Shown here: one piece after another, positions 8,182 to 61,871 of the stretch
Layout: each line of letters begins with the position of its first letter
Position numbering within the stretch: position 1 is the stretch's first letter
NCBI RefSeq assembly: GCF_000526495.1
Contig: NZ_JAGE01000001.1
Location: 2,414,001-2,478,000, forward strand
From: Ruminiclostridium josui JCM 17888
GTDB lineage: Bacteria; Bacillota; Clostridia; Acetivibrionales; DSM-1351
Length of the DNA stretch: 64,000 nucleotides
Direction: 5' to 3'
Position numbers and translations under genes: made by a program
The notes under the pieces: generated by a model
What the model was told of the DNA's origin: nothing
Database searches by the model: none
Seen by the model: the letters and a program-made list of their open reading frames with translations, nothing else

Positions 8182-9936
8182 ATGAAAAAGGTTTTAGCAC
8201 TGATTGTATTGTGCAGTATTATTATGAGTTTGTTACCTATGTCTGTCTATGGTGCCACCAGTTCACATGATATGGTAAAGAAGATGGGAATAGGAATCAA
8301 CCTTGGAAATACCTTTGACGCACCAACGGAAGGGTCTTGGTCAAAGGCAGCTCAGGAGTATTATTTTGATGATTTTAAACAGGCAGGTTTTCAGCATGTG
8401 AGAATTCCAATCCGTTGGGATCAGCATACACAAGTAAACAGTCCTTATACAATTGATAGCAGCTTCTTAGACAGAGTCGAAGAAGTAATAAATTGGTCAC
8501 TTTCTCGTGGATTTGTTACAGTAATTAATTCTCATCATGATACTTGGATTATGGAAAATTATAATCAGAATATCGGACGATTTGAAAGAATATGGCAGCA
8601 AATTGCAGAACGTTTTAAGGACAAGTCTGAAAATCTGATTTTTGAAATATTAAATGAGCCAAATGGTAATATAACAGATAGCCAGATAAACGATATGAAC
8701 AAAAGAATTCTAAATATAATAAGAAAGACTAATCCAACTAGAAATGTAATTATCGGAGCAGGTTTCTGGAATAGCTATAATTCATTAAGTCAGCTGGAAA
8801 TTCCAAACGATCAAAATCTTATTGCAACTTTCCACTACTATGACCCATATTCTTTCACTCACCAATGGCAGGGTACATGGGGAACAAAAAATGATATGGA
8901 TGCCATAAATATGGTATTTAAACAGGTTAAAAAATGGTCAGATAAAAATAACATACCTGTGTATCTTGGAGAATATGGTGTAATGGGACATTCCGATAGA
9001 AATTCTGCTATAAAGTGGTGGGATTTTGTTAGCGACCAGGCTGCATCATATGGATTTGCATCCGGAGCTTGGGATAATGGAGTGTTTGGTTCTGTTGATA
9101 ATGATATGGCATTTTATAATAGAGATACAAGACAATTTGATAGGGAAATCTTAAATGCAATATTAACTACTGGAACAACCTATGAATGGACTCCTCCAGC
9201 TGAAACAGAGCCAGATCCTCCTCATACACCTGCAACACCAGCTTATGGAGAAGAGCTTATTGAGGATTTTGAAGGTGCTTTGCAGTGGTCGGCATATTCC
9301 GGTGTTAATGCAACTGCATCCTGTAAGGTTTCTAGTGGTAAATCCGGTAACGGATTGGAAATAACATATGCAGGTTCATCAAATGGATATTGGGGTGTTG
9401 TGGACAACAAACATAGAAATCAAGATTGGGAGAAATGGCAAAAAATATCCTTCGATATAAAATCTTCAAACACAAATGAAATTAGACTACTTATAGCTGA
9501 GCAAAGTAAGATAGAAGGAGAAGACGGAGAACATTGGGTTTATGTCATAAAACCAAGTACTTCTTGGACTACTGTTGAAATTCCATTTTCAGCTTTTACA
9601 AAAAGAATGGATTATCAGCCACCTGCACAAGATGCCAGTGACACTTTTGACGTCTACAAAGTAGGCTCCTTACATTTCATGTATAGTAACGGTAATTCAG
9701 GTGTTTTAAATATTGATAATATTAAGTTGGTTGGCCTACCAGAAGAGCAAACTGGAGGAAAAATTGGAGATGTTAATGAAGATGGCAATGTTGATGCAAT
9801 AGACTTTGCATTGCTAAAAAAATACTTACTGGATTCATCTATTAGCATAAATAAAGTGAATGCAGATATTAACTCGGATGGAGATATCAATGCCATTGAC
9901 TTTGCGAAGTTAAAAATGATGATACTTGGAAATTAA
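8182..9936 (+). CDS. Cellulosomal endoglucanase: GH5-CBM11-dockerin
   Basis: 584 residues. The signal peptide is residues 1-~25 (cleavage near VYGA). The GH5 barrel spans ~28-330: RIPIRW, SHHDTW, acid/base Glu159 in FEILNEP and nucleophile Glu264 in YLGEYG. It resembles the GH5 part of C. thermocellum Lic26A-Cel5E. A Pro/Thr linker (~334-354) follows. A CBM11 spans ~356-525, beginning [20 protein letters not shown], with [21 protein letters not shown] and HFMYSN, the positions that bind beta-1,3-1,4- and beta-1,4-glucans. The type I dockerin at ~532-584 has two calcium-loop repeats ([38 protein letters not shown]). It is secreted and docks to a scaffoldin to cleave cellulose or mixed-linkage glucan. 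RBS AGGAGGG. A strong terminator follows. Confidence 0.96.
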
Positions 9937-10121: not shown

Positions 10122-11294
10122 TTAGAAAGTTGTTATGACACCAAGCAGATACTTTTTCATAACTGCAAAGTCAAGAGCGTTAACTTCACCATTTTTGTCC
10201 ACATCAGCATTTTTTAGAGCATCTCCCGTAAGAGGTGTGGTATTGAGTATATGCATTTTTAAGAGTGCATAATCTGTTGCGTCAACTGAACCATCGCCAT
10301 TCAAATCACCTAAGATTTGGACTGGTTCTGCGACATCTTGAAATAAATCCGGTAATATATTATATATGTACTGATTAATATATCCCCACCAATGAGTACC
10401 ACCATTAGCTACCATAAAATAGAAGTTTCCATTTTTGATATCTGATGAATATATGAAAGTATTTGTGTATTTTTTCATTGCTTCTATCTGTGGTCTCATA
10501 TTAGGATATGCAATATCTTCACTGCCTGTAGCGCAGAACAACTTGAAGTCTTGAGGTGCTTTATAACCGGATTTACTTACAACATCTGCCAAGTACTGTG
10601 CTGTTTCTGCAGGTTTACTACTTCCAGCAGTTGAACCTAATGCCCAACAGTCACCACTTAAAGGTATAAAATATTTAATATAGTCAAGACAGTTAATAAA
10701 TGTATACCATGTACATACTGAACCCATTGAGAATCCACCAAATGCCCTGTGCTCTCTGGAAGCTTTCATATCTGCAGCACTACTTGATTTTAGATATGTA
10801 TTATATTTAGTTTCAACTAATGGAATAACTGAAGTAGTTAATTCTTGAGGGAAACCTGCAACATCATTATTACCTTTGTAGAATGAAGGTGTAACAAAAA
10901 TAGCTGGTTTAATATCTCCCTTTTCAATCATATTATCAATGATTACTTTTAATTCCTTGTTCTGACCAGGTCCGCCGAATAATAAATTTTCATCTTCACC
11001 GCCACCGTGCATCAGATATACAACGTTATACTTCTTAGAAGTATCAGACTGGTTATAGCCGTAAGGAAGATAGACGTTAAAATACTTAGTATCATTACCC
11101 CATTTGTAACTTAACCTTTCAATAGTACCTTGCTTTGAACTATTCATTTTATATTCATTAGGAAGGGGTTTGTAAATTTTCTCAGTGGCATCAACTGCAG
11201 ATACCGATGTATTAGCAGCAGCTACCATACTGAGAGTCATGATACTAGAAAGAATAAAACACAGGCTCCTTTTAAAACCTTTTTTCAATAACAT
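10122..11294 (-). CDS. Cellulosomal carbohydrate esterase (CE1, feruloyl esterase-like) with dockerin
   Basis: 390 residues with start ATG 11294 after AAGGAGGAC. The signal peptide is 1-~33 (VSAVDA). The alpha/beta-hydrolase of the CE1/esterase D type spans ~40-315: YLMHGGGEDE (oxyanion region), nucleophile Ser189 in GGFSMGS, probable Asp260 in ATGSEDIAY and His301 in GGTHWWGY. C. thermocellum feruloyl esterase modules have this layout. They remove ferulate from arabinoxylan, freeing it from lignin cross-links. The C-terminal type I dockerin (~327-388) has both loops (GDLNGDGSVDATDYALLKMH; ADVDKNGEVNALDFAVMKKY). It is convergent with the GH5 gene and near a GH10 xylanase, its natural partner. 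Acetyl-xylan esterase activity is an alternative. Confidence 0.9.
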   Translation of the reverse strand: MLLKKGFKRSLCFILSSIMTLSMVAAANTSVSAVDATEKIYKPLPNEYKMNSSKQGTIERLSYKWGNDTKYFNVYLPYGYNQSDTSKKYNVVYLMHGGGEDENLLFGGPGQNKELKVIIDNMIEKGDIKPAIFVTPSFYKGNNDVAGFPQELTTSVIPLVETKYNTYLKSSSAADMKASREHRAFGGFSMGSVCTWYTFINCLDYIKYFIPLSGDCWALGSTAGSSKPAETAQYLADVVSKSGYKAPQDFKLFCATGSEDIAYPNMRPQIEAMKKYTNTFIYSSDIKNGNFYFMVANGGTHWWGYINQYIYNILPDLFQDVAEPVQILGDLNGDGSVDATDYALLKMHILNTTPLTGDALKNADVDKNGEVNALDFAVMKKYLLGVITTF

Positions 11295-12659: not shown

Positions 12660-13937
12660 ATGAGAAAAAACGGTTTTAAATCTTTATCAGTGGCGCTTTC
12701 TGTCTTATTGACAGTGCTGATGGTTTCTTCATCTACAGTTAGTGCCGCTACTCCTACAGGCAAAAGGTTAAAGGATGTTCAAAGCAAGGTTCTGGTGGGA
12801 ACTGAATTCCCAAGTGGTTTTTCTACAATGTCAGATGCTTCCACATTTCTCGCAACTGCCACTCCAGAATTCAATCTGGTAACAGCAGAAAATTGTATGA
12901 AGTGGGATGCTTTGGAGCCTTCACAAAATCAATTTAATTGGAGCGAAGCAGATAAACTCATGAACTGGGCGAAAACCAACAATTATAAAGTTCATGGTCA
13001 TACATTTGTTTGGCATAGTCAAGCTCCTGGTTGGATACAGAATCTTAGTGCCAGCGCTATGGAGTCTGCCATGAACAATCATATTGACAAGGTAATGGGA
13101 CGCTATAAAGGTCAGATTGAAGTATGGGACGTAGCTAACGAAGTTTTTGAGGAAAACGGAAGCTACAGAAATTCCTTCTGGTATAGAACTATGGGTAAGA
13201 GCTTTATTGAAAAAGCATTTATTCGTGCTCGTGCTGCTGACCCTTCTGCAAAGCTGATATACAACGATTATAATCTTGAGTACACTGGTCCTAAGTCAAA
13301 TGCTGCTTATGAGATGCTCAAAGATTTCAAGAGCCGTGGTATACCTGTAGATGGTATTGGTTTCCAAATGCATCTGGATATACAATACGCAATTGACTAT
13401 AATGATTTTGCAAAGAATATGCAACGTTTCGCAGATTTAGGTCTTGAGATATACATAACTGAGATGGATGTACGTATATCAAGTAATGCTTCATCTTCAG
13501 AACTCCAAACTCAAGCAAGCTACTACAAAAATATTATCGAGAAATGTATGGCGCAGCCAGCAGTAAAAGCTATTCAGTTCTGGGGCTTCACAGATAAATA
13601 TTCTTGGGTACCTCAAACATTCTCAGGTAGAGACAATGCTCTGCTCTTCGACAGAAACTATAATCCAAAACCTGCTTATTACGCAGTACAAGCTGCTCTC
13701 GCTACAGCTCCTGCACCAACAATAGTTTATGGTGACCTTGATGGTAGCGGCAGTGTTGATGCTATAGATTATTCACTGTTAAAACAATATCTGCTTGGTT
13801 CAATAACCAAATTCCCATCTGAAAATGGTTTGACTGCTGCAGATGTAAATGGCAGTGGAACAATTGATGCGTTAGATTTTGCTGTTATGAAGCAATATTT
13901 AATCGGACTTATATCAAAATTCCCTGCACAAGTGTAA
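12660..13937 (+). CDS. Cellulosomal endo-1,4-beta-xylanase (GH10) with dockerin
   Basis: 425 residues. The signal peptide is 1-~29 (VSAAT). The GH10 barrel spans ~35-350: VTAENCMKWDALEPSQ, HGHTFVWHSQAPGW, acid/base Glu161 in DVANEVF, nucleophile Glu268 in YITEMDV, QFWGFTDKYSWVP and LFDRNYNPKPAYYAV. A short linker leads to a type I dockerin (~361-425) with two loops (GDLDGSGSVDAIDYSLLKQY; ADVNGSGTIDALDFAVMKQY). It is secreted and cleaves internal xylan linkages while bound to a scaffoldin. It carries no CBM, so targeting depends on the cellulosome. RBS AAAGGAGAG, nine bases before ATG. It ends in its own terminator and stands as a monocistronic unit. Confidence 0.96.
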   Translation: MRKNGFKSLSVALSVLLTVLMVSSSTVSAATPTGKRLKDVQSKVLVGTEFPSGFSTMSDASTFLATATPEFNLVTAENCMKWDALEPSQNQFNWSEADKLMNWAKTNNYKVHGHTFVWHSQAPGWIQNLSASAMESAMNNHIDKVMGRYKGQIEVWDVANEVFEENGSYRNSFWYRTMGKSFIEKAFIRARAADPSAKLIYNDYNLEYTGPKSNAAYEMLKDFKSRGIPVDGIGFQMHLDIQYAIDYNDFAKNMQRFADLGLEIYITEMDVRISSNASSSELQTQASYYKNIIEKCMAQPAVKAIQFWGFTDKYSWVPQTFSGRDNALLFDRNYNPKPAYYAVQAALATAPAPTIVYGDLDGSGSVDAIDYSLLKQYLLGSITKFPSENGLTAADVNGSGTIDALDFAVMKQYLIGLISKFPAQV

Positions 13938-14254: not shown

Positions 14255-16288
14255 GTGGATTTATTAACAATCATTTTATTATTAATGCTTGGATTACTTA
14301 TATCTGATATTGTAAGTCATTATATTCCCTTCATCCCTACAGCTTTGACCCAAATTCTATTTGGGATAATTATAGCCTTTGCGATTGGGGATTATAATTT
14401 TGAAATTGGTGCAGAGTGGTTTTTGTTATTGTTTGTTGCACCACTATTGTATAATGACGGGCGCCATTTTTCCCGCACAGAATTATGGGGAATGAAGTCG
14501 CAGATTTTTGGAAATGCATTCATCCTTGTAATATTAACCACAATACTTGGGGGATATATAATTAACTTGCTTATACCCGGTATTCCGTTAGCTGTTACCT
14601 TGGCTCTGGCGGCAGTTCTTTCCCCCACAGACCCAGTAGCTGTCAATGGCATTGCTAAGAGGATAAAAATACCTGAAAAGGTGATGGTTCTTGTTAGAGG
14701 AGAATCACTTATAAATGATGCTTCCGGACTTGTAGCCTTTGAATATGCAATAGCAGCCGCTGTTACAGGTTATTTTTCTCTTCGAGAAGCCCTTTGGGAT
14801 TTTTCCTATACATTACTTATTGGAGCTGTAGCAGGAATATTGCTAGGGCTGATTGTAACCTTTGTACGCTTCAGACTGCGCAAAAACGGTATAAATGATA
14901 CGGTGTTCCATTCATTGCTGCAGATTTTGACCCCATTTGGAGTCTTTATAGTAGCCGAGGATATTCTCCACGCTTCGGGAGTTATCGCCGTTGTAACTGC
15001 CGGAATTATTCACTCCATTGTCAATGAACATACAGAAACATACATACCCGAAGAACAGTTGCTCACAGAAAATACATGGTCAATCGTATTGTTTGTCTTA
15101 AACGGATTTGTTTTTTTATTGTTAGGAATGAATATTCCAGCAGCGATGTTTGATACTATTTCAAACCCTGATATAGGCAATTGGCTGGCTTTGGGCTATG
15201 TTGTAGTTATTGGATTTGTAATTCTCGCCATTCGGTTTGTTTGGTCCTTTTTGAGCAAAGCTCACAGTTATTATTTTAGTAAAAAAAGTGATGTTGAAAA
15301 GCCAAAAGTAAGAGAAGCCCTGATTACAACCTTAGCAGGTGTGCGCGGTGCAGTAACCATGGCAGGAGTCCTTACAGTGCCTGCTTTTTTAGGAAACGGA
15401 GAAGTATTCCCATCACGTTCACTGCTTCTATTTATAGCTGCAGGAGTAGTTCTCCTGTTGTTAATTCTTGCAACGGTATTTTTGCCATTGCTCTGTAGAA
15501 AGGAAGAACTCTCCGAAGATAAAGGGAAGCATGAGGATTTGACCTGGGCGAAGAATAGGCTTTTGCTGACGGCAATTAAAAAAATTAAAGCAGAAACAAA
15601 TGAGGAAAATGAATTGGCGGCCTCAGAATTAATACACGAATACACCGTCAGTTTTCAGAGAAATCTTTCGGGACAACAATCTGATGAACAGCAGGCTGAA
15701 TATTATAACAGGAAAATAAATGAAGCCCGCTTACTTGCCATAAACCTTCAAAGAAAGTATATCAATACTCTTTTGGCTAATGACGAAATAGACATAAATG
15801 TTTTCGATACAATAACCAAATTTTTGAATCTTCGAGAAGAAACTTTGGATAATAATTTTCGGTTCTCCACTACAGTTTTTTTAAAACGAGCCATGGGTGA
15901 TTTTCGTCGATTAGGTGTGAAAAAGCACATTTCCAGAGGTAGCGGTTTTAATAATTTACATTTTGCAAGAGATATCCAAATTAAGGCTATAAGTGTAGCG
16001 ATTAAGGGGTTAGAGGAATATGCAAAAACACAGGAACAGCCGGAATATGTTTATGCCGTGCTTCTGGACTATGAAAAAATTCTGCAAAGATTAAAGCATA
16101 CAGGTGAAAGTTATAATGAAAGTCTTGAAAGCAAAAAGGAAGAATTGCGTTTTGAGGTAATGGACGCGGAACGCTCTGAAATACGCAGAATGTATGAAGA
16201 TGGCGAGATAAACGCAGAGCAGGAGAAAGAACTAAGGAGATTTACCAATTATATAGAGAGTATCGTTTTATATGAACATAACGAATAA
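14255..16288 (+). CDS. Na+/H+ antiporter, CPA1 (NhaP/YjcE-like) family
   Basis: 677 residues from a GTG start preceded by GGAGGATATTAATT. The first ~415 residues hold about twelve membrane helices with CPA1 features: PLLYNDGRHF, LAAVLSPTDPVAV (the TDP unwound segment), RGESLINDASGLVAFEYA (the ND ion-binding pair) and LAGVRGAVTMAGVL. The C-terminal ~250 residues are a hydrophilic, helical, charged cytoplasmic domain, as in YjcE-type exchangers. It exports Na+ or K+ in exchange for protons and helps pH and salt homeostasis. It is a single gene flanked by dockerin genes and not obviously co-transcribed with them. Confidence 0.92.
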   Translation: MDLLTIILLLMLGLLISDIVSHYIPFIPTALTQILFGIIIAFAIGDYNFEIGAEWFLLLFVAPLLYNDGRHFSRTELWGMKSQIFGNAFILVILTTILGGYIINLLIPGIPLAVTLALAAVLSPTDPVAVNGIAKRIKIPEKVMVLVRGESLINDASGLVAFEYAIAAAVTGYFSLREALWDFSYTLLIGAVAGILLGLIVTFVRFRLRKNGINDTVFHSLLQILTPFGVFIVAEDILHASGVIAVVTAGIIHSIVNEHTETYIPEEQLLTENTWSIVLFVLNGFVFLLLGMNIPAAMFDTISNPDIGNWLALGYVVVIGFVILAIRFVWSFLSKAHSYYFSKKSDVEKPKVREALITTLAGVRGAVTMAGVLTVPAFLGNGEVFPSRSLLLFIAAGVVLLLLILATVFLPLLCRKEELSEDKGKHEDLTWAKNRLLLTAIKKIKAETNEENELAASELIHEYTVSFQRNLSGQQSDEQQAEYYNRKINEARLLAINLQRKYINTLLANDEIDINVFDTITKFLNLREETLDNNFRFSTTVFLKRAMGDFRRLGVKKHISRGSGFNNLHFARDIQIKAISVAIKGLEEYAKTQEQPEYVYAVLLDYEKILQRLKHTGESYNESLESKKEELRFEVMDAERSEIRRMYEDGEINAEQEKELRRFTNYIESIVLYEHNE

Positions 16289-16409: not shown

Positions 16410-17720
16410 ATGCTTAAAAAGACATTATTACTAGCCCTTGTGATTAGTAATATAGTTGTTTGGACAATGACTTCGGGAACATCGGCTGGGGCGCAAACAG
16501 TAAACCCTAGAGATGGGGAAACAGATTCGGTGACATCATCAGCTACAGGTTATGTTAAATATGGTGATGTTAATATGGATGATACCGTTGATTCTGTGGA
16601 TTTGGCATTATTAAAGGCTTATCTCTTAGCAAAATCAAGTACTCTGCCCAATGTTACAGCGGCGGATGTTACAGGTGACGGTACCCTTGATGCACTTGAT
16701 TACGCTATACTTAAAAAGTATCTTTTGGGCCTAATTACTACACTGCCTGCTGATTCAGCAGATAGCAGTGATAAGATTCTTATTCCTCATGAATCATGGA
16801 CGTGTGGAATGGCTAATGGAATACCTAAGCCTGAAAACGGTGTTCTTGTATTTGAAGCTACCATGAAGTTGCAGAATAGTTACGATTTAGGAAAAACCCA
16901 ATATGGACAGAGAAAGGTTTTGGTAGTTCAAAATGGTAGCATAACAGGTAACAAAATACAAGGCTCTGTAATGTCCGGAGGACTTGATTTTCAGCTGACT
17001 CTTTCAAATGGCGCAATGGAAATAGAACAATTATTAGTGTTAAAAGCCAATGACGGAAGTTATATTTATCTAAGAAGTGCTGGAACAGCCATTAACCAGA
17101 ATGATGTGAGGATGGTTTGGGATTTTGAGGCTCCCAACTCAAGTTCATACAATTGGCTTAACTCCGGAAAATATGCGGGCAGACGTGTTATAGACTCGGC
17201 AGCCGGAACAATGAAGATAAGTGTTTATGACGTATCTGGTATAAACTTTACACCGGATTCCACAAACTCAATAAAAGTAACTGAGCCCAGTGATGTGCCA
17301 GACCAACCTTGGGACTTTAGAAAGGCATCTTCTGAGAGAAAAGGTAATATATTTATAACTGAGTCAGTTAGCCTTGGGGCGAGTCAATCGGTAGGAGCAA
17401 GCAAGAAAGGGAGCAGAAATATTATTCCTATAACTGGTGGAACTGTAAGCGGAAATTTAACGGCTAAGATTTTACCGGCAGGTGCCGATTATCAGAACCT
17501 AGCGAATCCTATGACAATCGATGCAAGATATCTTTGGCAAACTAATGACGGAGAAATTATTATTGTGCGAAATGGGGGACAATTTGGATCTCTTGTACCT
17601 ACATTTGAAGTTCGTGCAGACAGTAAATACTCATACCTGAACCAAAAGCTATATTTGAGCTCAGATCCCGGCGGTGGAGCAGGTGGAGTAACAATTACAT
17701 TTTATGAAAGTATAAAGTAA
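16410..17720 (+). CDS. Dockerin protein with two DUF3237-like domains
   Basis: 436 residues. The signal peptide is 1-~28 (SAGAQ). A complete type I dockerin lies at the N-terminus (~50-112) with two loops (GDVNMDDTVDSVDLALLKAY; ADVTGDGTLDALDYAILKKY). Two related beta-rich domains of the DUF3237 type follow. Domain A (~125-290) has RKVLVVQNGSITGNKIQGSV and SGGLDFQL, then YLRSAGTA. Domain B (~300-436) has GSRNIIPITGGTVSGNLTAK, LPAGADYQN, DARYLWQTNDGEIIIVRNGG and the closing GVTITFYESIK. DUF3237 barrels have no established activity. The dockerin implies incorporation into the cellulosome, so sugar or polysaccharide binding or lyase-like activity is plausible, but this is inference. Dockerins are more often C-terminal. 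RBS AGAGGAGG. Confidence 0.8.
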   Translation: MLKKTLLLALVISNIVVWTMTSGTSAGAQTVNPRDGETDSVTSSATGYVKYGDVNMDDTVDSVDLALLKAYLLAKSSTLPNVTAADVTGDGTLDALDYAILKKYLLGLITTLPADSADSSDKILIPHESWTCGMANGIPKPENGVLVFEATMKLQNSYDLGKTQYGQRKVLVVQNGSITGNKIQGSVMSGGLDFQLTLSNGAMEIEQLLVLKANDGSYIYLRSAGTAINQNDVRMVWDFEAPNSSSYNWLNSGKYAGRRVIDSAAGTMKISVYDVSGINFTPDSTNSIKVTEPSDVPDQPWDFRKASSERKGNIFITESVSLGASQSVGASKKGSRNIIPITGGTVSGNLTAKILPAGADYQNLANPMTIDARYLWQTNDGEIIIVRNGGQFGSLVPTFEVRADSKYSYLNQKLYLSSDPGGGAGGVTITFYESIK

Positions 17721-17895: not shown

Positions 17896-18663
17896 TCAGC
17901 GTTTTATTGAGTTTCGGAAGGTACCAGGTGAAAGACCAGTGATTTTATGAAACTGCCTGACAAAATGTTCTACGTTGTTATATCCGCAAAGAGTTGAAAT
18001 TTCTGCGATGGTATGGGGACTATGAATAAGTTGGTCTTTTGCAAAACGAATACGGCAATTTATTACGTCTTTCATGCAGGAAATCCCAAATGTCTCTTTA
18101 TACAACGCTTGCAGATATCCTGGGCTTAAATGAAGGCTTTCTGCCATGGCAGGAACGCTCCAAGGAAACCCCGGATTGTTATGAATCTTCCTTCGTAAAT
18201 CCAATATTGATTGAAATTGACTGAAGTTTTTCGTATATTTGGAGGCTTCGTGGAGTTTAATAAACAGTACTTTAAGTAAATAGTCAATAGTAAGTTCTCT
18301 GTAGCTGTTGCTCAATGTATTTTCTGCTACAAGTAACTGAAACAGCTTGTGGCAATATCCGGGATCGGATAAAGGGAAAGGGATACCCAGAGGGATTGCA
18401 GTATCAATGAGGTATGGCTCGGCGGAATCAAAGCGAACCCAATCGTTAACATATTTATCTGAGCAGGCTCGGTAAAGAATTTTGTGATGTGGAGGGTATA
18501 AAACAGCACTGTTAGCAGGATATTCTATCATTTCTCCATTTACCCAAAATTGTGCTGGAGTTTGTGTAAGAACCAACAACCAACAATCATGGCCTTTTGG
18601 CATATCAAAAACAAAATTTTCAGGGTGAGTAGCATCGTACTCCACATAGTATATATGAGCCAT
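17896..18663 (-). CDS. AraC-family regulator, divergent from GH43
   Basis: 255 residues from ATG 18663, which has GGAGAAAGAA directly upstream; an in-frame TTG at 18675 lies within that ribosome binding site and is not the start. The N-terminal half is an AraC cupin sensor (FVFDMPKGHDCWLLVLTQTP, VLYPPHHKILYRA). The C-terminal ~100 residues hold the two HTH motifs (SVPAMAESLHLSPGYLQALYK; TIAEISTLCGYNNVEHFVRQF) and GLSPGTFRNSIKR. It is divergently transcribed from the intracellular GH43 glycosidase with 245 bp between starts, so it likely activates that gene on arabinose or xylose oligomers. The ligand is inferred. Confidence 0.9.
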   Translation of the reverse strand: MAHIYYVEYDATHPENFVFDMPKGHDCWLLVLTQTPAQFWVNGEMIEYPANSAVLYPPHHKILYRACSDKYVNDWVRFDSAEPYLIDTAIPLGIPFPLSDPGYCHKLFQLLVAENTLSNSYRELTIDYLLKVLFIKLHEASKYTKNFSQFQSILDLRRKIHNNPGFPWSVPAMAESLHLSPGYLQALYKETFGISCMKDVINCRIRFAKDQLIHSPHTIAEISTLCGYNNVEHFVRQFHKITGLSPGTFRNSIKR

Positions 18664-18908
18664 TTCTTTCTCCAATCTTAGAATAAATCAATTTTATATT
18701 AGTATAAATCATTGTTTTATATGATTCAATATTTTACAATTTTATTGATACAGCTGTGTATATTATACGTATTGCATATTGATAATAGATACCAAATACT
18801 TTTGGGGTTATTTGAAATTATCAATTAGAGTAGTACGGTTGTTATATATAGTTATAACAAAGTGCAAATAAATAGTAGTAAAAATCATAGCAAAGGAAGG
18901 TAAATATT

Positions 18909-20330
18909 ATGATGGAAAAAAAGCAAGGTGTAAACCCATATCTCCCGTCATGGGAATATGTTCCTGACGCAGAACCCCATGTTTTCAATGGCAGAGTCTA
19001 TGCTTACGGCTCTCATGATCGTTTTAACGGTTATGCATACTGTTTAAATGACTATGTATGCTGGTCGGCACCAGTAGATGATTTGTCTGATTGGCGGTAC
19101 GAAGGTGTGATTTATAAAAAGACAGATGATCCTCAGAATCCTGACGGGAGTGCGTGTCTTTATGCTCCTGATGTTACTCAAGGGCCTGATGGACGCTATT
19201 ATCTATACTATGTACTCGATAAAGTATCCGTTGTTTCAGTAGCAGTTTGTGATACTCCTGCAGGTAAGTATGAATTTTATGGATTTGTACATTATTCCGA
19301 TGGAACACGCCTGGGTGAAAAAGAAGGAGACCAGCCTCAATTTGATCCAGGAGTATTGACAGAAGGAGATAAAACATATCTCTATACCGGATTTTGCGGA
19401 AAAGGTGATAAATCAAGGAAAGGGCCTATGGCAACAGTACTTGGTCCAGATATGCTTACGATAATTGAAAATCCGGTGTTTATAGCACCAAGTGAACCAT
19501 ACAGTGCAGGTAGCGGATATGAAGGACATGAGTTCTTTGAAGCTCCTTCCATACGCAAGAAAGGGGATACCTATTATTTCATTTATTCCTCAATTGTTTA
19601 CCATGAATTGTGTTATGCTACCAGCAAATATCCCACAAAAGGTTTTACTTACGGTGGAGTAATTGTGAGCAACAGTGATCTTCATATTGACACTTACAAG
19701 CCGGCTGAAAAACCTATGTTTTATGGTGCTAACAACCATGGAAGCATCTGCGAAATCAATGGTCAGTGGTACATTTTTTATCATAGACATACCAATGGAA
19801 CTAATTTCAGCCGTCAAGGCTGTATTGAGCCTATTTCTATTCTTGAAGACGGCTCAATTCCACAAGTGGAAATGACTTCTTGCGGCCCAAATGGAGGCCC
19901 GCTTGTAGGACGTGGAGAATATCCTACTTATCTGGCATGTAACCTGTATTACAAAGAGGAATCCATATATACGGACTGGACCGGAGCATGGATGGATCAT
20001 CAGTTCCCTAAGATTACCCAGGACGGAAGAGATGGAGATGAAGAGATTGGCTATATTGCTAATATGAAGGATTCTGCTACAGCCGGATTTAAGTATTTTG
20101 ACTGTAAGGGTATCAAGAAAGTAAAAATTAAGGTTCGAGGTTATTGTATAGGCGAATTCGAAGTAAAAACTGCCTGGAACGGTGCGGTTCTTGGAAAGAT
20201 ACCAGTGGAGTTTTCTAACATATGGAAAGAGTATTCTGCTGATATTGTGATACCTGACGGAGTAAATGCTTTATATTTCACCTATACTGGGTCAGGAAGT
20301 GCAAGTTTGGCTTCTTTTACACTAGAATAA
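18909..20330 (+). CDS. Intracellular GH43 glycosidase (arabinofuranosidase/xylosidase type)
   Basis: 473 residues without a signal peptide or dockerin, so cytoplasmic. GH43 five-bladed propeller spans ~10-330: Asp20 in YVPDAEPHVF (general base), Asp146 in QFDPGVLTEGDKTYLYTG (pKa modulator position), Glu211 in EFFEAPSIRK (general acid), NNHGSICEINGQWYIFYHRH and RQGCIEPI. The C-terminal ~130 residues (~345-473, beginning ACNLYYKEES) are beta-sandwich-like and resemble a CBM6-type accessory domain found in some GH43 enzymes. It would remove arabinose or xylose from imported arabinoxylan oligosaccharides made by the GH10 and CE1 enzymes nearby. RBS AAAGGAAGG. It is controlled by the divergent AraC gene by position. 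The exact substrate cannot be told. Confidence 0.9.
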   Translation: MMEKKQGVNPYLPSWEYVPDAEPHVFNGRVYAYGSHDRFNGYAYCLNDYVCWSAPVDDLSDWRYEGVIYKKTDDPQNPDGSACLYAPDVTQGPDGRYYLYYVLDKVSVVSVAVCDTPAGKYEFYGFVHYSDGTRLGEKEGDQPQFDPGVLTEGDKTYLYTGFCGKGDKSRKGPMATVLGPDMLTIIENPVFIAPSEPYSAGSGYEGHEFFEAPSIRKKGDTYYFIYSSIVYHELCYATSKYPTKGFTYGGVIVSNSDLHIDTYKPAEKPMFYGANNHGSICEINGQWYIFYHRHTNGTNFSRQGCIEPISILEDGSIPQVEMTSCGPNGGPLVGRGEYPTYLACNLYYKEESIYTDWTGAWMDHQFPKITQDGRDGDEEIGYIANMKDSATAGFKYFDCKGIKKVKIKVRGYCIGEFEVKTAWNGAVLGKIPVEFSNIWKEYSADIVIPDGVNALYFTYTGSGSASLASFTLE

Positions 20331-20391: not shown

Positions 20392-21390
20392 TTATAAATC
20401 TCCCAATAAATCTTCTATTGCCTTTTTTTCAATTTGATACATTTTAGGCAAAGAATCAATTATATAGTTTAAATGTTTTTTGTTTTTAGTAGAATTATAT
20501 TTCATTATGATATTTCGCATGTTTAAAGATTTCTTTTCTAATTCACCAAATATGGAAGTTATATCATTATTAGAATTGATGTACTTATTTTCTGCTAAAT
20601 ATTCTAGACGAGATACCATGGCTTTTTTATGTTCATAAAGCAAATGAAAATGTTTAATGTCACATACTTTTCCAGAATCATCATTAAGTATATTCTGGTA
20701 ATATTTTATTAACTCATCATATACTGAAATTCCGCATATACCGTTATTGGGTTTACCTATTAGGCGGAAGTTTTCAGATGTGTTTTTAGAAAATAAATAA
20801 TCAGTTAATAGATTTTTAACATTCACGATATCAAATTCATATGATGGTCTATATGATTTACTATCTTTCGCTTTCATTAATATGAAATCATTGGTTTTGT
20901 TAATAGAATTTAAGTAACTTGTTTCAAATTCAGAAAAACTTACACATGAGGGACTATATTTTAGCTCTTTATTAAAGCCTATTACATTAAATACACTTTT
21001 ATCTGAATCAAAGCCATAAATCATAATTTCGTGTCTGAAATGTATTTTTCGTTCGTAGGATATTCTATCAGGTATGTAATATTCATCAGTATATGTCATT
21101 ACATAATACCCGAGACTTATACTGTTTTTTATAAGATCAATGACATTTATATTGGACTTGTATATAAATTCTAAATCCAGCCTTTCATAATCTAGCAAAG
21201 GACATAAGCTACTGAAACCGCTTATTGGGTATGTAAGGAAGTTTAAAGTATTACCATTGATGAAATATTCCAATTGAATATAATTACTATAAAACCAAGC
21301 ATTGAAATCTTTGTGGCTCATTGCCACTGTTAGCGGATAGGCATGATGTAAATAACAATTTATGGGTGGATTGTGAAGTTCCAATTCCAT
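20392..21390 (-). CDS. Orphan protein with C39/BtrH-like cysteine-peptidase fold signature
   Basis: 332 residues with start ATG 21390 after GAGGTAATAAAT. I do not recognise a named family with certainty. Cys12 sits in PPINCYLHHAYPL at the N-terminus. A central segment HFRHEIMIYGFDSDKSVFNV (His120) followed by FSEFETSYL looks like the His-strand region of C39 peptidases and BtrH-type acyltransferases (H-x-I-x-I-Y-G-Y-D pattern). The usual Asp in the next strand (xxDP) is not evident, so catalysis is uncertain. The C-terminal ~120 residues are helical and charged. Such proteins are typical of peptide or polyketide natural-product clusters, but no biosynthetic genes lie beside it. It is flanked by the GH43 gene (convergent) and topB (divergent). 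Lower GC than its neighbours suggests transfer. Confidence 0.5.
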   Translation of the reverse strand: MELELHNPPINCYLHHAYPLTVAMSHKDFNAWFYSNYIQLEYFINGNTLNFLTYPISGFSSLCPLLDYERLDLEFIYKSNINVIDLIKNSISLGYYVMTYTDEYYIPDRISYERKIHFRHEIMIYGFDSDKSVFNVIGFNKELKYSPSCVSFSEFETSYLNSINKTNDFILMKAKDSKSYRPSYEFDIVNVKNLLTDYLFSKNTSENFRLIGKPNNGICGISVYDELIKYYQNILNDDSGKVCDIKHFHLLYEHKKAMVSRLEYLAENKYINSNNDITSIFGELEKKSLNMRNIIMKYNSTKNKKHLNYIIDSLPKMYQIEKKAIEDLLGDL

Positions 21391-23898: not shown

Positions 23899-24708
23899 AT
23901 GAGCGTATTTGATAAACTTGATTTTCTGAAAACCAACATAAAATCATTGGGAAGTGCTGCTGTAGCTTTTTCTGGCGGTGTGGATTCTTCCTTTTTATTA
24001 AAGGTAGCATTTGATGTACTTGGAAAAGATGTTGTAGCAGTAACGGCACATTCTTCTACATATCCTGAAAGAGAAATGAATGAAGCAAAGGAATTTGCTG
24101 CAAGCTACGGTATAAGGCATAGGATAATCCATTCTGAGGAACTGGATGTTGAAGGATTTTCAGATAATCCGGTTAACCGATGCTATTTATGTAAAAACGA
24201 GTTATATGATAAAATTCAGGCGGTTGCAAAAGAAGAAAATGTAAAATATATTCTGGAAGGCTCTAACCATGATGACCTTGGGGATTACCGTCCAGGACTT
24301 AAGGCAGTAAGTGAACATGGTGTCCTTAGCCCACTAAAGGATGCTCTGCTTACAAAGGACGAAATACGTTTTCTTTCAAAGGAAATGGGCCTTAATACAT
24401 GGGATAAACCTGCATTTGCATGCCTTTCCTCCAGATTTCCATATGGGGAGAAAATAACTCACCAAAGGCTTAGAATGATAGACAGAGCGGAACAGCTACT
24501 TATGGACTTGGGCTTTAAACAGGTGAGAGTAAGGTTCCATGGTGATATAGCAAGAATAGAAGTAGGACAGGAACAGTTCCTTAAATTTATTGATAGCGAA
24601 ATAAGAGAAAAGGTTTATTCTGAATTCAAAAAAATAGGCTTTATGTATACTGCTTTAGATTTAAAAGGTTATAGAACAGGCAGTATGAATGAAGGATTAA
24701 AGTTATAA
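23899..24708 (+). CDS. larE: LarE, ATP-dependent sacrificial sulfur transferase
   Basis: 269 residues. The PP-loop AFSGGVDSSFLLK (~23-35) activates substrate with ATP. Cys175 in PAFACLSSRFPYG is at the position of the sulfur-donor cysteine of Lactobacillus LarE (Cys176). NRCYLCKNELYDKI (~93-106), KEENVKYILEGSNHDDLGDY and RPGLKAV are typical. LarE converts carboxylates of a nicotinate-derived dinucleotide to thiocarboxylates for the nickel-pincer cofactor of lactate racemase. No larA, larB or larC is seen in the window, so it either serves a distant set or another sulfur insertion. It ends opposite an Rrf2 regulator. RBS GGGAGG. Confidence 0.88.
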   Translation: MSVFDKLDFLKTNIKSLGSAAVAFSGGVDSSFLLKVAFDVLGKDVVAVTAHSSTYPEREMNEAKEFAASYGIRHRIIHSEELDVEGFSDNPVNRCYLCKNELYDKIQAVAKEENVKYILEGSNHDDLGDYRPGLKAVSEHGVLSPLKDALLTKDEIRFLSKEMGLNTWDKPAFACLSSRFPYGEKITHQRLRMIDRAEQLLMDLGFKQVRVRFHGDIARIEVGQEQFLKFIDSEIREKVYSEFKKIGFMYTALDLKGYRTGSMNEGLKL

Positions 24709-42895: not shown

Positions 42896-44893
42896 ATGCT
42901 AAAAAAGTATGAAAAGTTATTCGAAACCATCAAAATTGGTTCTGTAGAAATGAAAAACCGGTTTGCCATGGCTCCTATGGGGCCGTTAGGTTTGGCAGAT
43001 GCAGAGGGCGGTTTCAATCAGCGTGGAATCGACTACTATACTGCTCGTGCCAAAGGTGGTACAGGATTGATTATTACCGGAGTTACATTTGTAGATAATG
43101 AGATTGAAGAACATGGAATGCCAAATGTCCCATGTTCTACTCACAATTCGGTACACTTTGTCCGTACTGCTAGAGAGATGACAGAACGCATTCACGCATA
43201 CGATGCAAAGATATTTTTACAACTTAGCGGAGGCTTCGGTAGAGTAACAATTCCAACAAATCTGGGTGAATATCCTCCTGTTGCACCTTCACCAATTAAA
43301 CACAGGTGGTTGGACAAAACTTGTCGTGAATTGACTGTGGAGGAGATAAAATCAATAATTAAGAAATTCGGAGACGGGGCCTATAACGCAAAACGTGCAG
43401 GGTTTGACGGAGTTCAGATTCATGCTGTACACGAAGGCTACCTTATTGATCAGTTTGCAATTTCTTTTTTCAACCACCGTACAGACGAATATGGAGGATG
43501 TCTTGAGAACAGGCTTAGATTTGCCAGAGAAATTGTTGAAGAGATTAAAATGAGATGCGGAGAGGACTTCCCTGTTACATTGAGATTCAGTCCTAAGAGC
43601 TTTATTAAGGATTGGTGTGAAGGAGCTTTGCCGGGAGAAGAGTTTGAGGAAAAAGGAAGAGATATACCGGAAGGTATCGAAGCGGCAAAATTACTGGTTT
43701 CCTATGGGTATGATGCTCTTGACGTAGATGTAGGTTCTTATGATTCCTGGTGGTGGAGTCATCCTCCAATGTATCAGGAAAAAGGGCTATATATACCCTT
43801 TGCTAAAATTGTAAAAGAGGCTGTAAATGTTCCTGTTTTGTGTGCAGGGCGTATGGATAATCCTGATCTGGCGCTAAAAGCTATTGATGATGGCGCCTGT
43901 GATATTATCAGTCTTGGCCGTCCTTTGCTAGCTGATCCAGATTTAGTGAATAAACTTAGAGCAGGTAAACTAAAATCCATAAGACCTTGTCTGTCCTGCC
44001 AAGAAGGATGTATGGGGCGTATTCAAGAATATTCTGCTTTAAACTGTGCTGTAAACCCTGAAGCGTGTAGAGAAACAATACATGGCTTGACTCCAGCTTT
44101 AAAAAGTAAAACAGTACTTATAGTAGGTGGAGGAGTTGCAGGTTGTGAAGCAGCCAGGGTTCTGGCACTTCGTGGTCACAAGCCGGTTGTGTACGAAAAA
44201 CGCAGTCGACTTGGTGGTAATTTGTTACCCGGAGGAGCGCCTGACTTTAAAGAAGATGATCTTTTGTTGGTGGCTTGGTATGAAGAAACTCTTAAAGAAC
44301 TTGGTGTAAAGGTGAATTGTAATACAGAATTAACTGCGGAGATTATAAAAAACAGTGATGCAGATACAGTTATAATTGCCACAGGTTCAAAACCCAAGAT
44401 ATTCAATTTGGGTGAACATAATAAGGTTTTTACAGCAGAAGATGTTCTGCTTGAAAAAGAAGAATCAGGCAATGAAGTAATTGTTGTGGGAGGTGGGTTG
44501 GTTGGCTGTGAGCTTGCACTCTGGCTTGCAGAAAAAGGCAAAAAAGTTACTATTGTAGAAATACAAAACAAACTTCTTGCATTAAACGGCCCTCTGTGTC
44601 ATGCAAATTCAGAGATGTTGGAAAGATTAGTACCATATAAGGGCATTGAAGTACTTACTTCCTCAAAGATAATAAAGACAACTGAAAAAGGTGCTTTGGT
44701 AGATGTTTCTGGAGATATCAGAGAGATTTGTGCCGACAGTGTAGTTTTAGCAGTAGGCTACAATTCTGAACGGACTATTTATGAGCAGATTAAATATGAT
44801 ATTGACGATATTCATTTGATAGGGGATGCACGTAAGGTAGCTAACATAATGTACGCTATTTGGGATGCCTATGAAGTTGCCAGAAACATATAG
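42896..44893 (+). CDS. Old-yellow-enzyme family NADH:flavin oxidoreductase (FadH/enoate reductase type)
   Basis: 665 residues. The N-terminal TIM barrel (~1-375) binds FMN: NRFAMAPMGPLGLAD, AKGGTGLIITGVTFVD, FDGVQIHAVHEGYLIDQF, NHRTDEYGGCLENRLRFA, VPVLCAGRMDNPDLALKAI, DIISLGRPLLADPDLVNKLR. A 4Fe-4S cluster loop follows (CLSCQEGCMGRI ... LNCAVNPEA). The C-terminal half holds FAD and NAD(P)H Rossmann folds (VLIVGGGVAGCEAARVLALR; VIVVGGGLVGCELALWLAEK). This is the 2,4-dienoyl-CoA reductase/BaiCD/enoate reductase class that reduces activated C=C bonds. Normal length. The DUF3237 gene lies 100 bases downstream and probably shares its transcript. Confidence 0.93.
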   Translation: MLKKYEKLFETIKIGSVEMKNRFAMAPMGPLGLADAEGGFNQRGIDYYTARAKGGTGLIITGVTFVDNEIEEHGMPNVPCSTHNSVHFVRTAREMTERIHAYDAKIFLQLSGGFGRVTIPTNLGEYPPVAPSPIKHRWLDKTCRELTVEEIKSIIKKFGDGAYNAKRAGFDGVQIHAVHEGYLIDQFAISFFNHRTDEYGGCLENRLRFAREIVEEIKMRCGEDFPVTLRFSPKSFIKDWCEGALPGEEFEEKGRDIPEGIEAAKLLVSYGYDALDVDVGSYDSWWWSHPPMYQEKGLYIPFAKIVKEAVNVPVLCAGRMDNPDLALKAIDDGACDIISLGRPLLADPDLVNKLRAGKLKSIRPCLSCQEGCMGRIQEYSALNCAVNPEACRETIHGLTPALKSKTVLIVGGGVAGCEAARVLALRGHKPVVYEKRSRLGGNLLPGGAPDFKEDDLLLVAWYEETLKELGVKVNCNTELTAEIIKNSDADTVIIATGSKPKIFNLGEHNKVFTAEDVLLEKEESGNEVIVVGGGLVGCELALWLAEKGKKVTIVEIQNKLLALNGPLCHANSEMLERLVPYKGIEVLTSSKIIKTTEKGALVDVSGDIREICADSVVLAVGYNSERTIYEQIKYDIDDIHLIGDARKVANIMYAIWDAYEVARNI

Positions 44894-44993: not shown

Positions 44994-45413
44994 ATGAATT
45001 TTGAAGAAATATTAACAGTAAACGTTAAAATAGAAAGTGCAATTGATTTAAAAAACGATAATGGTGATTCAGTTGTAATGATTTCTTTCACAGGCAGTGC
45101 AGACGGAAAATATTTTGAAGGACAAGTTCTTCCTGGAGGGATTGATACTCAAATTATTGGAAAGTTTGACGACAGACATACCTTGTCCGCAAGATATATG
45201 CTTGAGGGGAAGGATTACACAGGTGAGTCCTGCAAAATTTTCATAGAGAATAACGGCCACATGGGCAAAAATCTGCAAGGTATTTTGTTCAGAACTTATC
45301 CAAAGATAATAACAAATAGTAAGGCTTTAGATTTTCTAAACCATGATATTTTAGTAGGGGAAGGCTTCCCTGCTGAGGATGGAGTAAAAATAGTAATATA
45401 TAGGGCAATATAG
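44994..45413 (+). CDS. DUF3237 family protein
   Basis: 139 residues, a single DUF3237 barrel: DSVVMISFTGSADGKYFEGQ, VLPGGIDTQ (the GG-x-D signature), ARYMLEGKDYTGESCKIFIE, and the closing FLNHDILVGEGFPAEDGVKI VIYR segment typical of the family end. No signal peptide. Start ATG with AAGGAG nine bases upstream. In many Firmicutes DUF3237 genes follow enoate-reductase-like flavoenzymes, as here, so it may act on the same substrate or product; the activity is unknown. Related domains occur in the dockerin protein at 16.4-17.7 kb. Confidence 0.8.
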   Translation: MNFEEILTVNVKIESAIDLKNDNGDSVVMISFTGSADGKYFEGQVLPGGIDTQIIGKFDDRHTLSARYMLEGKDYTGESCKIFIENNGHMGKNLQGILFRTYPKIITNSKALDFLNHDILVGEGFPAEDGVKIVIYRAI

Positions 45414-60341: not shown

Positions 60342-61871
60342 ATGAAAAAAGGTTTTATATTTTTAAGCAGTATTATGCTTACTTTTATGTTCATGCTTTC
60401 AAGTATATCTGTGTTTGCAGTCGGGAATAATACATGGACGGATAAGGCAGCAATTACTGTACCACGGTATGATCATGAAGTAGCCATATTAGATGGAAAG
60501 ATATATGTGATAGGTGGATATAACAGTAGTGGCTATCTTAATTCAGTGGAAGAATACGATCCTGCAACAGATAAATGGATTACCAGAGCAACAATGCCAA
60601 CTGCAAAAGAATATCATCAAGTGGCAGTAGTAGGAGGAAAAATATATGTCATAGGTGGACAGAACAGTAGTGGTTATCTTAATTCAGTAGAAGAATATGA
60701 TCCTGCAACAAATACATGGACAACCAAGGCACCAATGACTATAGCAAGGTTTAGACATGAAGTAGCCGTAGTAGATGGCAAGGTATATGTGATAGGTGGA
60801 AGTAACAGTAACAGTAGTGGTTATCTTAATACAGTGGAAGAATACGACCCTTTAAGAGATACATGGACGAGCAAGGCCTCAATGTCCATCGGAAGAAACT
60901 TTCATAAATTAGCCGTAGTGGCAAGAAAAATCTATGCCATAGGTGGATATAACGGTAATTATCTTAATACGGTGGAGGAGTATGACACGGAATATTCTTT
61001 ACCTCAACCACCAGCTAAACTGACAGTTTTATCCGGCAATGAAAAAGTTGATTTATCATGGGAAGTTGTGGATAGTGCAACTAGTTATAACATAAAACGT
61101 TCCGAAACTTCAGGTGGTCCATATGAGACAATTGCAAGTAATATAATGGCAACAGAATATACTGACACTGATGTTACCAACGGAACTACATATTATTATG
61201 TCGTATCTGCTATAAACGAAACCGGTGAAAGTGAAAATTCAAATGAAGTATCTGCAACACCTGAAAATCCAGCCATAACCCTTGAAGTAACCTCAGTTGA
61301 CAAAGCAAAGCTTGGAGACGAAATAACCGCAAACATAGTAATCCATAACGCTGTAAACATATGTGCCGAAGATTTGAAAATAGCTTATGATACTTCAAAA
61401 TTACAATTTATAAGTGCTGAAAATGCCGATGGGATGAAGATTTATAAAGAGGATGATATCGCTGTCGGGATTAAAAGGTACATAACTGCGTGTCTAGGTA
61501 AAGCCAATGCTGCAAATGGTGATAAAGTATTATTAAAGTTGAAGTTCAAAACCATAGATAAAGGTGAAGCAAAGATTGATATTACTAACGGACGTATTGC
61601 TGACAACGCTACTCTGGAAATGGATATTTCACAGGAAAACTGTGGTGAAAAGACAATATTGATAGAAGGTCCAAAGGACGTCAATCGTAATGGTGAATAT
61701 ACTCTTTTGGATTTAGGTATTACTGCATGGTATTACGGTTGTGCCGCAGTTGACACGGATAGCAGCAAATATGATACCGACCAGGTGGTAAATGGAAGGA
61801 TTGACGATGATGATTTAGCTGAAGTAGTAGCTCAAATACTTGCTAATACCAACTATACTGCTAATATATAA
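60342..61871 (+). CDS. Secreted Kelch-FN3-cohesin-like-dockerin-like protein
   Basis: 509 residues. Signal peptide 1-~27 (VFAVG). Four Kelch repeats (~30-225), each with VAVVxGKIYVIGG, YLNSVEEYDP and a closing W; repeats two and three are almost identical at DNA level with a ~150 bp period. A fibronectin type III domain follows (~226-318, PAKLTVLSGNEKVDLSWEVV, YYYVVSAINETGES). Then a cohesin-fold domain (~320-450, LEVTSVDKAKLGDEITANIV, IAYDTSKLQFISAE). The C-terminal dockerin-like pair is degenerate (DVNRNGEYTLLDLGITAWYY; then a looser DDDDLAEVVAQILA). It could bind carbohydrate or other cell-surface proteins; whether it docks to the cellulosome is unclear. RBS TTAAGGAGGG. Confidence 0.85.
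   Translation: MKKGFIFLSSIMLTFMFMLSSISVFAVGNNTWTDKAAITVPRYDHEVAILDGKIYVIGGYNSSGYLNSVEEYDPATDKWITRATMPTAKEYHQVAVVGGKIYVIGGQNSSGYLNSVEEYDPATNTWTTKAPMTIARFRHEVAVVDGKVYVIGGSNSNSSGYLNTVEEYDPLRDTWTSKASMSIGRNFHKLAVVARKIYAIGGYNGNYLNTVEEYDTEYSLPQPPAKLTVLSGNEKVDLSWEVVDSATSYNIKRSETSGGPYETIASNIMATEYTDTDVTNGTTYYYVVSAINETGESENSNEVSATPENPAITLEVTSVDKAKLGDEITANIVIHNAVNICAEDLKIAYDTSKLQFISAENADGMKIYKEDDIAVGIKRYITACLGKANAANGDKVLLKLKFKTIDKGEAKIDITNGRIADNATLEMDISQENCGEKTILIEGPKDVNRNGEYTLLDLGITAWYYGCAAVDTDSSKYDTDQVVNGRIDDDDLAEVVAQILANTNYTANI

Follow-up and report, generated by a model that had tools for sequence, protein, structure and literature searches.

The protein encoded at positions 16410 to 17720 of the window, by which we mean the whole 64,000-nucleotide stretch of the Ruminiclostridium josui JCM 17888 genome analyzed here, carries a dockerin followed by two DUF3237 domains, and this two-barrel core belongs to a rare secreted family distributed across four phyla. 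We propose that the protein belongs to the cellulosome and acts there as an enzyme on phenolic links of the hydroxycinnamate or lignin type, a reading to which the comparative analysis below leads us to assign a probability of about 0.5.

The dockerin-DUF3237 protein and its surroundings

The coding region and the parts of its product are listed below.

16410..17720, + strand: dockerin-DUF3237-DUF3237 protein of 436 amino acids (ORF with an ATG start; Pfam)
16410..16493, + strand: signal-peptide-like, hydrophobic N-terminus, residues 1-28 (from the sequence; cleavage site placed by eye)
16560..16727, + strand: type I dockerin, residues 51-106 (PF00404, Dockerin_1, E 9.1e-17; solved type I dockerins such as 2vn5 match)
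16794..16811, + strand: SWTCGM motif, residues 129-134, with Cys132 (alignment of full-length relatives)
16836..17246, + strand: DUF3237 barrel 1, about residues 143-279, with R168, D193, Q195, E240 and N251 (Pfam, AlphaFold2, alignment)
17319..17717, + strand: DUF3237 barrel 2, about residues 304-436, with R336, D360, Q362, E400 and N411 (Pfam, AlphaFold2, alignment)

The earlier note, made from the letters of the window, had described an N-terminal dockerin with tandem DUF3237 domains, and Pfam confirmed this architecture. Besides Dockerin_1, DUF3237 (PF11578) matched the whole protein with 131.7 bits (E 2.3e-38; cut-off, 24 bits), and a chance ORF or chance domain match is ruled out by scores this far over the cut-off. 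Scored singly in the profile search of the genome, barrel 2 received 63.6 bits and barrel 1 53.3 bits. The second domain is thus the clear DUF3237 that it had been taken for. The first, which had been called a divergent copy, is indeed only 24% identical to the second over 127 columns, but it exceeds the cut-off alone and is therefore a DUF3237 member in its own right. No CBM, glycosidase, esterase or dirigent (PF03018) profile in Pfam matched the 436-residue protein at E values up to 10; a known CAZy family was rejected on the lack of a glycosidase, esterase or CBM match in Pfam.

The host genome gave 75 dockerin and 8 cohesin matches in the profile search, and thus a cellulosome is expected. 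The main scaffoldin lies on another contig, and a weak cohesin-like match (61275-61589, + strand; E 3e-9) was seen in a 509-aa ORF of the window (60342-61871). The N-terminal position of the dockerin, regarded as unusual in the earlier note, appeared less odd, as S-DOC1-CE2 and S-DOC1-UNK proteins are listed in a proteome study of Ruminiclostridium cellulolyticum (PMC5256962).

The genes surrounding the dockerin-DUF3237 gene are as follows.

8182..9936, + strand: GH5-CBM11-dockerin protein (profile matches)
10122..11294, - strand: CE1-type esterase with a dockerin, closest to the XynY feruloyl-esterase domain (1gkk, E 3.2e-83)
12660..13937, + strand: GH10-dockerin xylanase (profile matches)
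14255..16288, + strand: Na+/H+ exchanger, the immediate upstream neighbor (profile matches)
17896..18675, - strand: AraC-family regulator, the immediate neighbor on the other side (profile matches)
18909..20330, + strand: GH43 protein, no dockerin match (profile matches)

The GH5, CE1, GH10 and GH43 neighbors named before are all present, and the GH43, GH10, GH5 and XynY-type esterase genes lie within 7 kb of the gene. We take the XynY domain (1gkk), the best solved match of the CE1-dockerin protein, to be a feruloyl esterase. No operon with CAZymes is evident, as the direct neighbors are the Na+/H+ exchanger and the AraC-family regulator. The CAZyme neighborhood is not conserved across the genus, and it was rejected as main evidence. 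Beyond the GH43 gene, a 332-aa ORF (20392-21390, - strand) had no Pfam match at E 1e-5 or at 0.001, and a 269-aa ORF (23899-24708, + strand) had none at E 1e-5.

One of the closest orthologs (locus L065) is almost surely Ccel_1655 of R. cellulolyticum H10, as judged from gene order. Ccel_1655 shares the architecture of the window protein, is 88% identical to it in the core, and sits beside a CBM6-dockerin gene that we take as Ccel_1656. Under the label S-DOC1-UNK, Ccel_1655 was detected in the cellulosome by proteomics with a small change between paper substrates, and its entry in the table bears no domain or function (PMC5256962). Ccel_1655 and Ccel_1656 have been described as a two-gene cellulosomal cluster (PMC3656788), and Ccel_1656 as being under XydR in the straw response (PMC3572039). 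A terminator-like hairpin was recognized by eye between the two genes, so that they may or may not be under shared control. The CBM6-dockerin protein itself (L065:10949-13801, - strand), the main part of which was called unknown in 2013, matched the GH141 insertion domain (E 3.3e-9).

DUF3237 together with a dockerin has been noted in passing for Acetivibrio cellulolyticus and for beaver and moose enrichments (PMC3413522, PMC5742341); these mentions come with no word of a tandem, of gene partners, of a family spanning phyla or of a function. In the open-licence literature, supplements apart, we found no report on the function of a dockerin-tandem-DUF3237 protein.

Distribution of the core and its gene partners

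A pattern scan of the species-genome collection returned eight loci, seven of which held the core, complete or partial. Carriers were then recovered by profile searches (E 1e-15) in 11 of the 58 genomes of the order, in a single genome (the window's own) among 398 drawn from the phylum, in 3 of 387 Verrucomicrobiota (G060, one full relative and one partial), in 8 of 347 Acidobacteriota (including G062), and in 1 of 247 Spirochaetota (G059 itself). Across the four phyla, the core is 53-90% identical to that of the window protein, and the closest orthologs, at 88-90%, are those of the locus taken as R. cellulolyticum (L065, 88%) and of R. papyrosolvens (L004). Dropped before carriers were counted were G424 (one barrel matched, E 9e-18), a frame-broken second copy in G061 (L060), the fragments G029, G063 and L010, and L011, which had a dockerin match alone. 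The second copy of the Verrucomicrobial genome G061 (L060:7399-8465, + strand) is a tandem DUF3237 gene broken into two frames; it adjoins a GH2 gene and lies near fucosidase genes. Phage carriage was rejected, as none of the 47 viral contig stretches fitting a pattern encoded a relative.

In the tree, barrels 1 and 2 formed two clades, each with a support of 100/99; long branches were flagged, and the split between the barrels is safe but the deeper placing is not. The two clades indicate that the duplication preceded the spread over phyla. For barrel 2, the copy from the Spirochaete was nested among the dockerin-bearing clostridial ones (11 rows, 100/99), a position that a transfer would produce. 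The genome concerned (G059, a Spirochaetales MAG; L006/L071) has at least 150 dockerin matches, with three dockerin genes at the locus, and mis-binning is possible.

All of the 22 full-length proteins matched DUF3237 and 11 of them matched Dockerin_1, namely ten clostridial proteins and the Spirochaete one (E 4.7e-9). The genomes of these 11 have at least 63 dockerin matches each, and the other 11 genomes none to two; the tandem proteins lacking a dockerin begin with a hydrophobic leader, as judged by eye. The survey of dockerin-DUF3237 fusions suggested in the earlier note thus found the fusion in half of the tandem carriers and not in the other half. Because the dockerin is confined to carriers with dockerin-rich genomes, it is an interchangeable adaptor, and the function must sit in the barrels; the dockerin was rejected as the source of function.

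Across the phyla, the recurring partners of the core are esterases of feruloyl or aromatic-ester type and xylan enzymes. A gene for a PF07519 tannase/feruloyl esterase directly adjoins the core in six Acidobacteriota (G062, G1113, G1035, G1089, G960 and G1019) and is one gene off in two Verrucomicrobiota (G060 and G061). Among the 22 carriers searched, this partner was therefore adjacent or one gene away in 8 of the 12 non-clostridial ones against 0.12 expected, a figure computed from genome length and tannase number with rough windows that reached about 3 kb and half a gene to either side; the P value is a guide only, because genomes were treated as independent and those of the same phylum are not. 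G951, in which the contig stops just past the gene, was counted as a miss. In phmmer, the tannases beside the core in four Acidobacteriota loci (L054, L056, L057 and L070) gave E values of 1e-235 or lower against their Verrucomicrobial counterpart, whereas two other tannases (L058 and L070) scored 5e-31 and 4e-36. PF07519 was found for 0 of the 10 clostridial carriers, and no tannase was found anywhere in G114; G1097 has a GH3 gene and other alpha/beta hydrolases next door.

As PF07519 also spans tannases, and as the nearest solved relatives of one partner were MHETase (9.2e-36) and then fungal feruloyl esterase B (6.6e-28), the substrate might be gallate or an ellagitannin ester product instead of ferulate. 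We consider such a tannin-related role very unlikely, since several loci are ringed by xylan enzymes, the Spirochaete partner is of XynZ type, and one esterase of the window is of XynY type.

In five of the ten clostridial carriers (L005, L062, L063, L064 and L068), the direct neighbor is a CE3-like esterase with a dockerin; the one in L005 matched the solved structure 2vpt at E 1.8e-100, a type that we assume to be CE3 (acetyl esterase). The Spirochaete carrier has a XynZ-type esterase-dockerin gene directly upstream (1jjf, E 6.2e-97), as well as GH10 and GH39 genes, and the Verrucomicrobial cluster L007 includes genes for a GH10 protein, a SASA-type esterase and a protein that weakly matches glucuronoxylanase. 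Within the genus of the window, the esterase partnership is mixed: GH43 and AraC genes lie near the core in the R. papyrosolvens-type loci L066 and L067, the GH141-like CBM6-dockerin protein lies beside it in L065, and no feruloyl-esterase-type gene occurs in the 20 kb covered at each of the other four loci of the genus. The two genes scanned beside the core in G018 were not CAZymes. CE15 glucuronoyl esterases were dropped as candidate neighbors, as the four small esterases in question, encoded next to or near the core gene in three Acidobacterial loci (L053, L055 and L057), carry GHSCGG and weakly match PETase-like hydrolases, one of them having also been compared with the PDB, and several long ORFs in the GC-rich loci L058 and L059 were treated as spurious by eye. 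At L054:7853-9391 (- strand), an FAD_binding_2 flavoprotein gene directly adjoins the DUF3237 gene and the tannase gene; this flavoprotein family includes cinnamate-type reductases.

The earlier note was right to tie the DUF3237 protein to plant-wall attack. The esterases and xylan enzymes that recur beside the core point, however, to the phenolic groups that decorate xylan, and not to a new fold active on polysaccharides.

The esterase theme is partly repeated by single-domain DUF3237 proteins, one of which is encoded in the window.

44994..45413, + strand: single-domain DUF3237 protein, leaderless as judged by eye; apart from the tandem protein, the genome gave no further member (profile search)
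42896..44893, + strand: old-yellow-enzyme/enoate-reductase-like flavoprotein, preceding the single DUF3237 gene

Of the partner genes of single loci, the window has the enoate-reductase-like one alone. Three further single genes of the genus, all cytosolic (L081, L088 and L089), follow an enoate-reductase-like gene and a gene for 304 residues, which scans as BD-FAE in Pfam in L081; those in L088 and L089 and one in L079 are alike by eye. The single genes in L082-L084 are flanked by a gene for a beta-lactamase-type hydrolase and one for a GH51-type arabinofuranosidase, and at five of the 12 clostridial single loci (L078, L080, L085, L086 and L087) none of the partner genes sought was found. The plasmid survey returned 73 records with a match, and the six loci opened were all sphingomonad. 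Here the exported single protein is encoded next to a tannase gene (L072 and L077), two genes from one (L074), near a BD-FAE-type esterase gene (L073 and L076), or with an alpha/beta hydrolase (L075). In L076, from Novosphingobium THN1, a flavoprotein, a cytochrome c and the DUF3237 protein are encoded within 4.5 kb. As THN1 carries pinXWV homologues (PMC12607616), this DUF3237 protein is probably PinX; with the two barrels of the window protein it shares 32% and 31% identity.

Predicted fold, conserved residues and characterized relatives

AlphaFold2 modeled the core as two beta-barrels (pLDDT 91.2, pTM 0.89; barrel 2 alone, 89.9 and 0.82). In the structure search, the barrel 1 model matched 3g7g (Z 16.6, 1.9 A, 129 residues), and the barrel 2 model matched 3c5o (Z 18.4, 2.0 A, 122 residues) and PhnH (6jjs/6jjt; Z 16.6, 2.7 A, 125 residues). 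Structure prediction, proposed in the earlier note for each half, thus yielded confident models of the core and of barrel 2 alone, both predicted barrels matching the solved DUF3237/PhnH structures 3g7g, 3c5o, 4pux, 9m2y and 6jjs at Z 14-18. The closest folds, at Z 16-18, are the UPF0311 structures 3g7g, 3c5o and 4pux, which are single-domain proteins with no function in their PDB titles, in contrast to the tandem protein of the window. Weaker matches at Z 7-9 were barrels for small molecules, namely Diels-Alderases, pyocyanin demethylase, allene oxide cyclase and dirigent proteins. The dirigent/pterocarpan synthase barrel is of a similar general type (Z 7.8), in a range where fold alone may be coincidence. 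No phenolic acid decarboxylase was among the structure matches listed, which is no proof of a different fold.

These matches bear on the first proposal for the protein, a polysaccharide-active enzyme or a classical CBM. GH10, GH43, GH30-like, GH39 and GH3 genes do lie near the core in several loci; on the other hand, Pfam gave no CBM or glycosidase match, and the best structures are DUF3237 followed by small-molecule barrels such as the Diels-Alderases, allene oxide cyclase and dirigent proteins. We thus regard either of these roles as highly improbable.

Both barrels, like the probable PinX homologue, carry a polar set (G-x-R, D-x-Q, FE and LN) at equivalent positions. All 52 barrels in the alignment have the D, Q and N, and the R and the E are each found in 51 of them, both barrels of the window protein included. 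The R/D/Q/E/N set would presumably line the pocket. Ahead of barrel 1, the motif [SAG]-W-[TPS]-C-[GA]-M is present in 22/22 full-length relatives, its cysteine (Cys132) being the sole cysteine of the core in 17 of them, and 78 of 320 core positions are invariant over these 22 rows from four phyla.

DUF3237 can no longer be called a domain of wholly unknown function, as it was taken to be in the earlier note, since PinX, PhcF/PhcG and PhnH have known reactions on phenolics. PinX contains DUF3237 and is 42% and 38% identical to PhcG and PhcF, respectively (PMC12607616). PinX and PhcF/PhcG decarboxylate lignin dimers and open their phenolic ether rings, and a quinone methide is likely formed in the PhcF/PhcG route according to a review (PMC12607616, PMC12997858, PMC11323797). 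They belong to the same domain family as the barrels of the tandem protein but are single-domain, as far as L076 shows, and act in sphingomonad aromatic catabolism, whereas the tandem proteins are cellulosomal or secreted and have esterase partners. The substrates that define the PinX/PhcF/PhcG type are phenylcoumaran or lariciresinol acids, and among the neighbors scanned here neither a lignostilbene dioxygenase nor a GMC oxidase of a dilignol pathway came up. The hydroalkoxylase PhnH acts on a phenol, and calculation and docking suggest phenol deprotonation with proton transfer from a glutamate (PMC8704240). It shares the fold of the window barrels, but it is a fungal polyketide enzyme 17-19% identical to them, and it lacks the D-x-Q pair in a phmmer alignment that is itself weak (E 0.016). 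For dirigent barrels, stabilization of quinone methides has been proposed (PMC7450108).

A candidate role on wall phenolics

We propose that the protein would be secreted and that its dockerin would plug the two DUF3237 barrels into the scaffoldin alongside xylanases and feruloyl esterases. The barrels would be small-molecule pockets for p-hydroxyphenylpropanoids such as ferulate, p-coumarate, diferulates and lignin end groups, and would use acid-base chemistry to form or cleave a bond next to the phenol, like PinX, PhcF/PhcG and PhnH. From the partners and relatives, we infer that the pockets bind hydroxycinnamoyl or lignin-type phenolics. The barrels are most likely enzymes, to judge from the characterized members of the family, and they might, more tentatively, catalyze a lyase or ring-opening step via a quinone-methide-like intermediate.

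The same pockets could instead serve as a non-catalytic module that grips feruloyl or lignin groups and holds the cellulosome on the phenolic-rich wall. Two similar barrels in tandem would suit avidity, and the dirigent-like barrel, a distant fold neighbor (7r5z, Z 7.8), can bind a sugar, as OsJAC1 binds galactobiose (PMC9405769). Nevertheless, both barrels retain the polar set, which the probable PinX homologue has as well, the DUF3237 members with a reported function in the sources cited are enzymes, and the carriers lacking a dockerin and the cytosolic single proteins have less need of targeting. We hold pure binding to be doubtful, though worth weighing. As for the new polysaccharide enzyme or binding module of the earlier note, the binding part is possible, but partners and relatives point to phenolics.

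It is also conceivable, if unlikely, that an enzyme of this kind acts not on wall links but on ferulate or p-coumarate freed by the esterases, for example by decarboxylation, and clears these inhibitors. The esterase partners would supply the free acids, and PinX has been compared with the phenolic acid decarboxylase PadC, to which it is 13% identical (PMC12607616). It can be argued against such scavenging that a diffusible substrate needs no mounting on the cellulosome and that one simple acid needs no two different barrels.

Several observations weigh against the proposed phenolic enzyme as well. Wall-bound ferulate lacks the free carboxylate that PinX and PhcF/PhcG take off. The esterase in five clostridial loci is CE3-like (acetyl), the XynY-type gene of the window is no constant neighbor among the loci of the genus, and G114 without a tannase, G1097 with its GH3 and other alpha/beta hydrolase neighbors, and the 5/12 bare single loci do not fit readily. 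Furthermore, straw was not among the substrates of the R. cellulolyticum proteome study, which were cellulosic papers and cotton (PMC5256962). Genomic partnership alone does not establish chemistry.

In its most specific form, which we consider quite improbable, the proposal would give anaerobic cellulosomes a non-hydrolytic enzyme dedicated to the phenolic cross-links of the wall. The tandem protein would take the proton from a p-hydroxyphenyl group, either in a diferulate or in a benzyl ether between lignin and carbohydrate, and expel the linked sugar or aryl group via a quinone methide, so that xylan would come free of lignin without oxygen; Acidobacteria, Verrucomicrobia and the Spirochaete would have this enzyme in common, along with partners of feruloyl-esterase type.

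How fast grass and wood can be digested is limited by feruloyl cross-links and by bonds between lignin and carbohydrate, and esterases cut some of these links. To our knowledge, no enzyme is established for the benzyl-ether links between lignin and carbohydrate. The proposal is easy to test, since the window protein is a small, secreted one and its closest orthologs share 88-90% of the core residues with it. The interest of the dockerin-DUF3237 protein is real, but it shifts from polysaccharides to wall phenolics: the protein probably equips the cellulosome with an arm for wall phenolics and is likely catalytic, and, if this is true, a cellulosomal enzyme that acts on phenolics independently of oxygen would be something new for the field.
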